From: an uncultured Roseateles sp.
GTDB lineage: Bacteria > Pseudomonadota > Gammaproteobacteria > Burkholderiales > Burkholderiaceae
DNA length: 27,304 bases
Assembly (NCBI GenBank): GCA_946480605.1
Contig: CAMLKW010000031.1
Span: 1-27,304, forward strand
Direction: 5' to 3'
Shown here: in pieces, positions 16,263 through 20,518 of the stretch
How the letters are laid out: every line of letters starts with the position of its first letter
How positions within the stretch are numbered: the first letter of the stretch is position 1
Notes under the pieces: model-generated
What the model was told of the DNA's origin: nothing
What the model saw: the letters and a program-made list of their open reading frames with translations, nothing else
Databases searched by the model: none
Made by a program: the position numbers and the translations under genes

Positions 16263-16886
16263 TCAGGCGGCCGATGGCAGGTCGGCCTGGCGGCGCGACA
16301 CGTCGCGCAACAGCCTCGCCACGATCAGGCGCATGACGTGAAAGCCCAGCTTGGGGTTCTGGAAGTAAAGCAGGGCCATCTCTTCGGCCGTGAGGCTGTA
16401 GACCACGCAATCGGCCGTCGCCTCCAACGTCAGGGTGCGCCGGTTGTCGGGCGCGAACAGGCCGATCTCTCCGACCAGCGCACCCGGCCCCAGCAGCTCG
16501 TCGTACTCCACCAGGCGCAATGCGCCGGAATCCAGGTAGAGCATCTCGGTCGCCGCATCGCCCTGGCGCCACAGCACGGTGCCAGCAGCCACGGTGCGTC
16601 GGTGCATGTGCGGCAACAGCCATTCGGACACCGGCGTGTCGGCGCGGGCGCGCGCGATGGACTGCACCAGCCGGCGCATCTGCAGCGTCTTCTTGATGTT
16701 GATGGGGATCAGCACGCCGTAGAGCAACAGCGTCGGGACCGCCTGCTTCAGCGCGCCATAGGCAACCAGGAAGCAGCAGGCCGTCAGCGCGGCGATGCGC
16801 AGCGGCAGCATGCTCTTCATCAGGTAGCTGGCCAGCATCAGCGCGGCGCCGATCAGCCCGAGGGTGTTGGCGATCAGGTCGGTCAT
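16263..16886 (-). CDS. Membrane-anchored cyclic-nucleotide-binding protein
   Basis: A 207-residue inner-membrane protein. Three hydrophobic segments (about residues 5-23, 28-46 and 48-65) precede a cytoplasmic cNMP-binding domain (about 85-195). The phosphate-binding cassette is well formed: GALVGEIGLFAPDNRRTLTLEA, with E140 for the ribose hydroxyl and R149/R150 for the phosphate. There is no DNA-binding domain, so it is not a Crp-type transcription factor; the layout of three membrane segments plus cNMP domain recalls Popeye-domain proteins. Its ATG overlaps the stop of the nucleotide cyclase by four bases, so enzyme and sensor are made together. I infer that it senses the cyclase product at the membrane. 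Its output is unknown. Confidence 0.85.
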   Translation of the reverse strand: MTDLIANTLGLIGAALMLASYLMKSMLPLRIAALTACCFLVAYGALKQAVPTLLLYGVLIPINIKKTLQMRRLVQSIARARADTPVSEWLLPHMHRRTVAAGTVLWRQGDAATEMLYLDSGALRLVEYDELLGPGALVGEIGLFAPDNRRTLTLEATADCVVYSLTAEEMALLYFQNPKLGFHVMRLIVARLLRDVSRRQADLPSAA

Positions 16887-18317: not shown

Positions 18318-20518
18318 GCGGCCTCCCGGCGCGCCGGCGTCTGCTCCAGCGCGGCCACCAGCGCGTCCACGCGGATGGGCTTGGTGATGTAGTCGTCCAT
18401 GCCGGCGGCCAGGCACTGGTCGCGGTCGCCCTTCATCGCGTTGGCCGTCATCGCGACGATGCGCGGCCGGGCCGCCCCGCAGCGATCGAGGATGCGCCGG
18501 GTCGCCTCCAGGCCGTCCATCTCGGGCATCTGCACATCCATCAGCACCAGGTCGTAGTCCTGCCGCAGCACGCTCTCCAGCGCCTCGACGCCGTCGGCCG
18601 CCACGTCGGCGCGATAGCCCATCTGTTGCAGCAGGCGCAGCGCCAGCTTCTGGTTCACCGCGTTGTCCTCGGCCAGCAGGATGCGCAGCGGATGGCGGGC
18701 CGCCAGGCCGGCGTCGAAGCGCGCACCCGGCGCCGGGGCGGCGGGCGCGGCGCGCACCGCCTCGTGGTGCAGCACGGTCACCAGCGTGTCGAACAGCTGG
18801 CTCTGGCGCAGCGGCTTCATCATGACCGCGGCGAACAGCCCCTCCTCCAGCTCGCGACGCCCCAGCGAGGTGAACAGCACGCGCGGCATCTCCGGCCGCA
18901 GCACGCGCAGCCGCTGGGCCAGGGCCGCGCCGTCCAGCTCCGGCATGTGCATGTCCAGCACGGCGACATCGAAGGCCTCGGCGGCCACCAGCGCCAGCGC
19001 CTCCAGCGGCGACTCGGTATCGCGCACCACCATGCCCCACTTGGCGGCCTGCAGCGCCAGGATGCGGCGGTTGGTGGCGTTGTCGTCGACCACCAGCATG
19101 CGCATGCCCTTGAGGGCCGGCTGGGTGCCGATGAGGTCGCGCCGCGCGCCGGGCGCGGCAGCGCTGGCCCTGGCCGGCAGCGTGAAATGGAAGCGGCTGC
19201 CCCGGCCCGGCCCGTCGCTCTCGGCCCACATGCGCCCGCCCATCAGCTCCACCAGCCGCCGGCTGATGGCCAGGCCCAGGCCGGTGCCGCCGTACTTGCG
19301 CGTGGTGCTGCTGTCGGCCTGGCTGAAGCTCTGGAACAGCCGCGCCAGGCCCTCCGCATTGAGGCCGATGCCGGTGTCGCGCACGACGAAATGCAGCTGC
19401 CCGCCCTCGGCCGCCAGGCCGACGACGACCTCGCCACCCTCGGTGAACTTGACGGCGTTGGACACCAGGTTGAGCAGCACCTGGCGCAGCCGCGTCACGT
19501 CGCCCAGCAGCACGGCCGGCAGTTCGCCCTCGGGCTCGTAGGCCAGATCCAGGCGCTTCTCGGCCACACGCGGCGCCACCAGGTCCAGCGCCGACTCGAC
19601 GCACTCGCGCAGATCGAAGGGCTGGGACTCGACGTCCATGCGGCCGGCCTCGATCTTGGAGAAGTCGAGGATGTCGTTGATGATGGTCAGCAGGGTCTCG
19701 CCGCTGTCGCGGATGGTGGCGGCGTAGTCGCGCTGCTCGTCGTTCAGCGGCGTGTCCAGCAGCAGCCCGCCCATGCCGATGATGGCGTTCATCGGCGTGC
19801 GGATCTCGTGGCTGACCGTCGCCAGGAAGGCCGACTTGTGGGCGCTGGCGGCCTCCAGCACGGCGGTGCGCTCGCGCACGCGCTGCTCGGTCAGGGCCTC
19901 GTTCAGGCGCCGGTTCTCGTGGCGCATGCGGATGGAGTCGCGCAGCGTGCCGGCGAACACATGGCCGTAGCCCAGCATGCAGCCCAGCATCAGCAGCAGC
20001 ATCAGGGATGTGACCCAGGACAGCGGCGCACCGTCCAGCAGGCCCCGTGCCACCAGCGGCAGCGCGCAGGGGATCACGTTGGCATAGGTGCTCGGCAGCA
20101 CGGCGGCATTGGCCGAGACGACGCTGATCATCATGCCCAGCTGCAGCATCATGAGCACCAGCAGGCGCAGTGGCTCGACGTCGAAGAACAGCCAGCCCGA
20201 AACGCCCCAGACCACGCCGTGCAGCAGGTTGTAGCCCAGCAGCAGGCGATGCCAACGGTCCAGCCGGCCCTCGGCCTGCCAGCGCAGGCGCAGCGGCGCG
20301 ACGGGGTAGTACAGCAGCAGCACGGCCACGACGGCCCCGCACCACGGCACGAGGCGGCCCCAGTCCAGCGGGCCACCGAGCGTCAGCGCAAAGCAGAACA
20401 GCGGCAGCGCGAGGAAGCCGGCCGTCACGCCGCGTCCCATGTTGCGCGCGACGATGCCGTGGCTGACCTCGGCCATCTGTGCTTCTTCGAGTTCGCTCCC
20501 CGCCCCCGTCGCCGCCAT
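18314..20518 (-). CDS. Hybrid sensor histidine kinase with two receivers (BarA/RpfC-like)
   Basis: A 734-residue inner-membrane kinase. Six or seven hydrophobic segments occupy about residues 33-185 with very short loops, so the sensor is within the membrane rather than a periplasmic domain. A short coiled region leads to HisKA (H237 in ATVSHEIRTPMNAI) and HATPase (N-box LVSNAVKFTE, DTGIGL, GGTGLGLAI, about 345-450). Receiver 1 (about 472-590) has D522 in AVLDMHMPELDG; receiver 2 (about 611-730) has D661 in LMDVQMPEMDG. It lacks its own HPt domain, which the next gene supplies. The ATG at 20518 has GGGGAGAG before it. A TAGACT -10 box lies at 20574-20579. The signal is unknown. Confidence 0.93.
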   Translation of the reverse strand: MAATGAGSELEEAQMAEVSHGIVARNMGRGVTAGFLALPLFCFALTLGGPLDWGRLVPWCGAVVAVLLLYYPVAPLRLRWQAEGRLDRWHRLLLGYNLLHGVVWGVSGWLFFDVEPLRLLVLMMLQLGMMISVVSANAAVLPSTYANVIPCALPLVARGLLDGAPLSWVTSLMLLLMLGCMLGYGHVFAGTLRDSIRMRHENRRLNEALTEQRVRERTAVLEAASAHKSAFLATVSHEIRTPMNAIIGMGGLLLDTPLNDEQRDYAATIRDSGETLLTIINDILDFSKIEAGRMDVESQPFDLRECVESALDLVAPRVAEKRLDLAYEPEGELPAVLLGDVTRLRQVLLNLVSNAVKFTEGGEVVVGLAAEGGQLHFVVRDTGIGLNAEGLARLFQSFSQADSSTTRKYGGTGLGLAISRRLVELMGGRMWAESDGPGRGSRFHFTLPARASAAAPGARRDLIGTQPALKGMRMLVVDDNATNRRILALQAAKWGMVVRDTESPLEALALVAAEAFDVAVLDMHMPELDGAALAQRLRVLRPEMPRVLFTSLGRRELEEGLFAAVMMKPLRQSQLFDTLVTVLHHEAVRAAPAAPAPGARFDAGLAARHPLRILLAEDNAVNQKLALRLLQQMGYRADVAADGVEALESVLRQDYDLVLMDVQMPEMDGLEATRRILDRCGAARPRIVAMTANAMKGDRDQCLAAGMDDYITKPIRVDALVAALEQTPARREAA

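Follow-up and report, generated by a model that had tools for sequence, protein, structure and literature searches.

Cyclic AMP and cyclic GMP in bacteria are usually thought to act through transcription factors of the Crp type. In Dictyostelium, hybrid kinases signal by way of the free HPt protein RdeA to RegA, where the receiver is carried by a phosphodiesterase, and cyanobacterial CyaC is a response regulator that joins a receiver to a cyclase and places the cyclase under phospho-receiver control. In Pycsar anti-phage systems, a class III cyclase gene lies beside a gene for an effector with a cyclic-nucleotide-binding domain (CNBD), the effector of one Pycsar type (PycTM) bearing transmembrane (TM) segments. 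In Popeye (POPDC) proteins, known from animal heart and muscle, a cytoplasmic CNBD follows three TM helices. Here we describe a block of four genes within a 27,304-nucleotide stretch of DNA (the window) from an uncultured Roseateles sp. (contig CAMLKW010000031.1 of assembly GCA_946480605.1), which encodes a hybrid histidine kinase, a free HPt protein, a class III cyclase with its own receiver, and a three-helix membrane protein that ends in a CNBD. We put at about 60% the probability that the block represents a cyclic-nucleotide module that acts at the membrane under phosphorelay control, with the three-helix protein as its sensor or regulatory subunit.

With the Dictyostelium relay the locus shares the hybrid kinases, the free HPt protein and the placement of a receiver on a cyclic-nucleotide enzyme, but that enzyme is a cyclase here and a phosphodiesterase there. 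It differs from CyaC in having a separate hybrid kinase and a free HPt protein, and in encoding CNBD effectors as well. The likeness to Pycsar is one of layout only: here the cyclase carries a receiver, a phosphorelay is present, no PycTM row appears at E up to 1, and the genes occupy a fixed chromosomal site in the genus, where relatives add a fifth gene for a phospholipase. This interposed gene specifies cyclic nucleotide monophosphate (cNMP)-binding, NTE P-loop and patatin domains as in NTE/PNPLA6, from which it differs in being bacterial and clustered with a cyclase; it is not in the window. The CNBD of PDB entry 5h5o also ranks among the closest systems and presumably belongs to the Xanthomonas cGMP receptor encoded by XC_0249, although the molecule of the entry is named a diguanylate cyclase. 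No publication on the four-gene cluster, on this type of operon or on a bacterial Popeye family was among the literature matches listed, a coverage outside which most subscription papers fall, nor did the searches yield a name for a module of phosphorelay, cyclase and membrane effector.

The gene block and its proteins

A first-pass annotation of the window had proposed four intact open reading frames, all on the minus strand, and reading them from the sequence bears this out (Table 1). It had also claimed that the genes overlap, from the kinase onwards, by 4, 8 and 4 nt. The second and third of these overlaps are exact, with 8 nt shared by the HPt and cyclase genes (17959–17952) and 4 nt by the cyclase and membrane-protein genes (16886–16883). 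The first, however, rests on an HPt start at ATG 18317 and was rejected. The next in-frame ATG, at 18299, is preceded by AGGAGG and yields an N-terminus of the M-A-x-V-I-D type, as in relatives; for these two reasons we place the start there, so that a 14-nt gap between the kinase and HPt genes is more likely than an overlap. A sigma-70-like promoter for the block and a convincing terminator beyond 16263 were looked for and not found, and the window contains no phospholipase gene.

Table 1. The four genes of the block, with positions in the window.
Feature	Length	Position	Strand	Domains or basis
Hybrid histidine kinase	734 aa	18314..20518	(-)	N-terminal membrane domain, HisKA, HATPase_c, two receivers
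Free HPt protein	115 aa from better-supported start (121 aa from ATG 18317)	17952..18299	(-)	PF01627
Receiver and class III nucleotide cyclase	358 aa	16883..17959	(-)	Response_reg and Guanylate_cyc
Membrane protein with three helices and a C-terminal cNMP-binding domain	207 aa	16263..16886	(-)	Pfam, structure model

The kinase shows five hydrophobic segments in a simple hydropathy scan, and the Pfam scan that delivered its HisKA, HATPase_c and receiver matches detected no HPt domain, which agrees with the claim of a hybrid kinase lacking one. The HPt protein ending at 17952 is indeed a free one and matches PF01627 (3.6e-11), while the cyclase has a receiver of its own as proposed (Pfam Response_reg, 6.4e-27; Guanylate_cyc, 9.4e-24). 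A motif scan located every phospho-site expected of such a relay: H237 in the HisKA domain and D522 and D661 in the receivers of the kinase, H58 as the likely phospho-accepting histidine of the HPt protein (numbered from the start at 18299), and D59 as the phospho-acceptor of the cyclase receiver. The receiver Asp, Thr/Ser and Lys of the cyclase are present together with the class III metal Asp pair, Asn and Arg, the catalytic set being D171 and D215 for metal, N292 and R296. The partner position of its substrate-specifying pair is occupied by threonine. Where the substrate-recognising lysine is expected, by alignment to PDB 6fht, stands Q211, and a Gln is likewise found in nine out of nine orthologues (loci L001–L008 and L014). 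With this lysine replaced, assignment as a canonical adenylate cyclase was rejected.

The membrane protein has the three helices and following cNMP-binding domain claimed for it (Pfam 9e-14; structure model), the model placing the helices at residues 2–22, 26–46 and 50–80 in agreement with hydropathy. Its phosphate-binding cassette is intact, as had been noted, and canonical (GE...RRT; G139-E140...R150-T151), and G139 and R150 are invariant across 80 aligned rows of the family. The predicted lack of a DNA-binding domain was also confirmed, as Pfam matches with E values up to 10 include no helix-turn-helix and the chain stops after the CNBD helix; the label of Crp/Fnr transcription factor, used by some sources, was rejected on these grounds. 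Pfam revealed no catalytic domain either. Rows from Foldseek and VIA-align lie mostly over the CNBD and are uninformative on the fold of the TM part. Imp-YgjV (PF10688) did not match the window protein at E up to 10 and gave weak matches in 8 of 24 relatives (best 20.6 bits, against a curated 23.5). A 158-residue frame in another genome (G006:C47:51276-51449) matches the TM half of the family only (31 bits) and is possibly a TM-only relative.

Conservation of the cluster and its genomic neighbours

A scan of one genome per species yielded 26 related loci. The order kinase, HPt protein, cyclase, membrane protein is kept in nine other loci (L001–L008 and L014), seven of them with the phospholipase gene inserted. 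In a sample of 20 genomes from the genus of Pelomonas sp. Root1237 (G003, carrying L003), the membrane protein occurs in eight (E up to 1e-40), and the same eight possess the cyclase orthologue (at least 618 bits) in one cluster with it, which bears out the conservation on which the proposal had been made to depend. A ninth genome has a cyclase of 46% identity and no membrane protein. The probability of such co-occurrence by chance is 7.9e-6 if the genomes are taken as independent, although they are related.

The phospholipase gene lies between the cyclase and membrane-protein genes in seven of the eight carriers, the genome of L002 being the exception. For the L003 protein, Pfam identifies cNMP_binding, NTE_Ploop and Patatin domains, and the other six are 75–91% identical to it. 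GTSMG, CDGG and the phosphate cassette are present in all four phospholipases examined (L001, L003, L009, L010), and coordinates give a 4-nt overlap with the membrane-protein gene in L001, L003, L004 and L006. The first-pass annotation had called the circuit complete, with every step from signal to effector encoded; the cNMP-binding patatin phospholipase inside the cluster of seven carriers contradicts this, and for the same reason the window cluster is a short version of a larger module of phosphorelay, cyclase and membrane effectors. A tree of cyclase and membrane protein, with supports of 32–50 around the window, did not distinguish loss of the phospholipase gene in the window from its never having been present.

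The closest counterparts of the window kinase (1067–1189 bits) are found in L001, L005, L006, L007 and L008. A kinase like that of the window directly precedes the HPt gene in L005, L007 and L008 (1067–1099 bits), whereas a kinase with GAF domains does so in L001, L003, L004 and L014. In locus L001 (1–6713), three consecutive genes for hybrid histidine kinases precede a single HPt gene, the middle kinase being the counterpart of the window's, and this arrangement suggests several inputs into one relay. Because the kinase before the HPt gene differs between genomes, the conserved core consists of HPt protein, cyclase and membrane protein, with a variable input. In Roseateles puraquae (L025, genome G016), the same site is without HPt, cyclase and phospholipase genes, and of the membrane-protein gene only a 3′ fragment (9839–10333) is left. 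The response-regulator gene downstream is the same as that downstream in L001–L008, and the kinase gene on the upstream side corresponds to genes upstream in L004, L005 and, in part, L008; with the cluster genes gone and the flanking neighbours matching those of relatives, the site reads as a chromosomal unit lost as a block. A mobile defence island in the genus was rejected in view of the fixed chromosomal neighbours.

The arrangement of the genes also recalls Pycsar, and the membrane protein might be a terminal effector that alters membrane permeability upon cNMP binding, like PycTM, with the phosphorelay replacing phage sensing. The cyclase gene is followed directly, with the 4-nt overlap, by one encoding TM segments plus a CNBD; the cyclase matches the PycC models of PADLOC (best 4.6e-23), the CNBD matches PycTIR (PADLOC 1e-05; PDB 8jsk 3.4e-06), and presence in the genus is patchy (8/20). 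The PycC matches, however, lie over the domain common to all class III cyclases, and a PADLOC search with the window protein and two relatives, up to E 1, brought up no PycTM row, the modelling of PycTM in that library being uninspected. Moreover, the response-regulator gene shared by L001–L008 and the reduced L025, though missing from the window, marks a fixed site rather than a mobile island, and the accessible portions of the Pycsar literature make no mention of two-component control. Given the fixed site, the lack of a PycTM row and the involvement of a phosphorelay, a killing role like that of Pycsar may be envisaged but is the less likely one, and we regard it as improbable.

Within 5 kb of the membrane-protein gene, the 26 loci contain a class III cyclase gene in 17 cases, a phospholipase gene in 11, a gene for a K+ channel with a cNMP domain in 4 and one for an MBL-cNMP protein in 1. 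In 23 loci, one or more such genes lie within this distance, and in one locus beyond it; L017 (short contig), L022 (contig edge) and L025 (fragment) have no such neighbour. All four K+ channels examined have a TTVGYGD or TTIGYGD filter. Locus L010 (4215–7932) has a run of genes for phospholipase, three-helix cNMP protein and K+ channel, and no cyclase was found in it. The circuit does not hold in the form drawn by the annotation, as L010–L013 carry the membrane protein beside phospholipases or K+ channels without an adjoining phosphorelay. The recurrence of cyclase, phospholipase and K+ channel neighbours speaks for a membrane sensor or a regulatory subunit rather than for a transcription factor.

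Full-length family members, judged by coverage, turned up in 6 of the 399 order genomes (the central genome of the sample included) and in about 19 of the 398 phylum genomes, several genomes having two or three copies; these counts are lower bounds, at most seven candidates having been scored per genome. Among 30 more distant loci from the order and phylum samples, some sharing one genome, only four showed neighbours of the kinds listed above in a search whose queries came mostly from Burkholderiales loci and may miss divergent neighbours. The association with cNMP genes is therefore a trait of the clade that contains the window protein. Loci L117–L137 (for example in genomes G618, G633 and G695) have stand-alone three-helix cNMP genes, in some genomes two or three, and no cyclase was found near them.

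Such a small protein, with no catalytic domain found, could also be a mere scaffold or sink that localises the cNMP or the cyclase, while Crp-type regulation, or a phospholipase or channel whose gene lies elsewhere, provides the true output, and the other cNMP genes near it in 23 of the 26 loci of its own clade would be compatible with this. However, the window, L002 and L014 retain it with neither a phospholipase nor a channel adjoining, and searches of genomes G002 (L002) and G012 (L014) at E up to 1e-60 found no phospholipase there. We consider a pure scaffold unlikely.

Relation of the membrane protein to Popeye proteins

The first-pass annotation had likened the last protein to Popeye proteins in layout. 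The three N-terminal TM helices followed by a CNBD are confirmed, and the likeness goes further: the profile similarity is collinear, and the family lies beside K+ channel genes in 4 of the 26 loci, just as POPDC1 is described as interacting with the TREK-1 channel in the accessible text of a published study (PMC4918794). The divergent phosphate cassette of Popeye proteins is not found, the window protein having the canonical GE...RRT instead, and it also differs in its short N-terminus, in the lack of a long C-terminal tail and in failing to match the Pfam model. We class the window protein as a relative rather than as a POPDC member.

The resemblance could be convergent, with short hydrophobic segments joined to the common CNBD fold. 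This would agree with the lack of a match between the window protein and PF04831 (E up to 10), a model that matches 2 of 24 relatives weakly (best E 0.054 in a search with 24,736 models, for L014 over the TM region), and with the direct profile comparison (hhalign) of the Roseateles-type family with vertebrate POPDC1, which is weak (probability 12–35%). No POPDC chain was among the best 60 of 219 PDB matches. Arguing against convergence, a TM-only family profile scored 102 distinct vertebrate POPDC1 TM regions at a median of 9.5 bits and a maximum of 17.9, whereas shuffled regions reached a median of 0.4, a 99.9th percentile of 9.6 and a maximum of 14.9, and reversed ones a maximum of 3.0; the POPDC1 regions are mutually related, hence not independent trials. 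The shuffle control took 114 of 120 proteins, the anchor motif being absent or too N-terminal in the six left out.

PF04831 was also searched in 398 Pseudomonadota genomes, giving six matches with one above the cut-off, and in 196 genomes of the order of genome G510, giving two with none above it; 14 control genomes were without a match in either search. The one protein above the cut-off (L072) reaches 12.2 bits with the full family profile, over the CNBD only, and 2.3 bits with the TM profile, a point in favour of convergence. In contrast, a protein of Erythrobacter insulae (L073, 1096–1815; P0241), which falls just short of the PF04831 cut-off (27.7 bits against 28.1), reaches 41.4 bits with the full family profile, the match extending over both TM part and CNBD, and PF04831 stands in the precomputed annotation of about 66 of 120 relatives listed for it (P0241–P0360; hand count). 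The family profile gives L074 and L075 scores of 25.0 and 20.9 bits, and the frames of L076 and L077 no more than 2.5 bits. Among the Erythrobacter and Qipengyuania proteins, many combine PF04831 (POPDC1-3) with PF00027 and are of a bacterial Popeye type.

Profile comparison places the Roseateles-type family close to the Erythrobacter type (97%, P 9e-11, 188 columns), and the latter nearer to POPDC1 (68%, P 4.7e-5, 194 columns). With the TM parts only, Roseateles type against Erythrobacter type scored 28.2 (shuffled maximum 17.2) and Roseateles type against POPDC1 19.3 (shuffled maximum 18.2, a narrow margin); neither score was reached by any of 150 column shuffles, and five unrelated TM controls gave up to 13.8. 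The comparison of Erythrobacter type with POPDC1, at 15.8, was equalled by 4 of 150 shuffles, a result on the side of convergence. Because the Erythrobacter proteins with Pfam POPDC annotation bridge the family to animal POPDC, the sequence comparisons make homology with Popeye proteins over the whole architecture probable, best seen within bacteria and weaker towards animals, and convergence appears rather doubtful to us. The accessible text of a 2018 review (PMC5872366) places the origin of POPDC at the base of animals and suggests that it was independent. A broader proposal, which we hold only tentatively and at somewhat less than even odds, is that the Popeye architecture originated before animals, as an old bacterial membrane cNMP sensor whose gene clusters with those of receiver-cyclases, K+ channels and cNMP-gated NTE phospholipases and which serves such membrane effectors as a shared regulatory subunit; animal POPDC, acting on TREK-1, would then be a late member, and the present cluster would show the original signalling context.

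Proposed signalling route and its meaning

A reading that uses every motif runs from kinase to HPt protein to cyclase receiver, with a predicted direction and effect of the transfer. The membrane-bound hybrid kinase would pass phosphate from H237 to receiver D661, or perhaps D522, from where it would reach H58 of the free HPt protein and then D59 of the cyclase. Phosphorylation of D59 would change the output of a 3′,5′-cyclic mononucleotide, and this nucleotide would bind the CNBD of the three-helix protein as the membrane sensor or regulatory subunit; we infer the direction of phosphate flow, the activation, the ligand and the partnership alike. What the sequences show directly is the content and order of the genes, their motifs and conservation, the association with cNMP genes and a distant relation to the Popeye architecture. 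Since a phospholipase gene is interposed in most close relatives and a K+ channel gene stands beside it in others, the membrane protein probably aids nucleotide-gated membrane effectors of these kinds rather than being the sole output. No other local output was found in the window. Several observations weigh against the route outlined: the kinases preceding the HPt gene vary among genomes, so that the input is not fixed; the phospholipase is missing from the window, L002 and L014; the substrate pair of the cyclase is non-canonical (Q/T); and in 26 of the 30 more distant loci, the search with mostly Burkholderiales queries found no cNMP-related neighbour within 5 kb, the family also existing as stand-alone genes.

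Elsewhere in the window, a FixL/FixJ-like pair (PAS kinase and LuxR-type regulator; 20642–23153, minus strand) lies 123 nt before the hybrid kinase gene, and a divergent DctP-type solute-binding protein frame (23156–24268, plus strand) abuts the FixL-like kinase gene. They are followed by genes for an ANTAR-domain protein and then an NMT1-type protein (24272–26502, plus strand), a pair reminiscent of nitrate regulation and uptake genes. At the other end, a class I (GH19) chitinase gene adjoins a TonB-dependent receptor gene (1268–4874, plus strand).

In this locus and its relatives, a phosphorelay appears to drive a cyclase that is linked to membrane proteins, phospholipases and K+ channels as receptors. 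Should the three-helix protein truly be related to Popeye, it would offer small bacterial models with genetic partners to the POPDC field, in which, according to the accessible part of a 2019 review (PMC6952887), understanding stands behind that of EPAC and PKA and no structure is reported. In that case, the independent origin at the base of animals suggested in the accessible text of the 2018 review (PMC5872366) would need revision.

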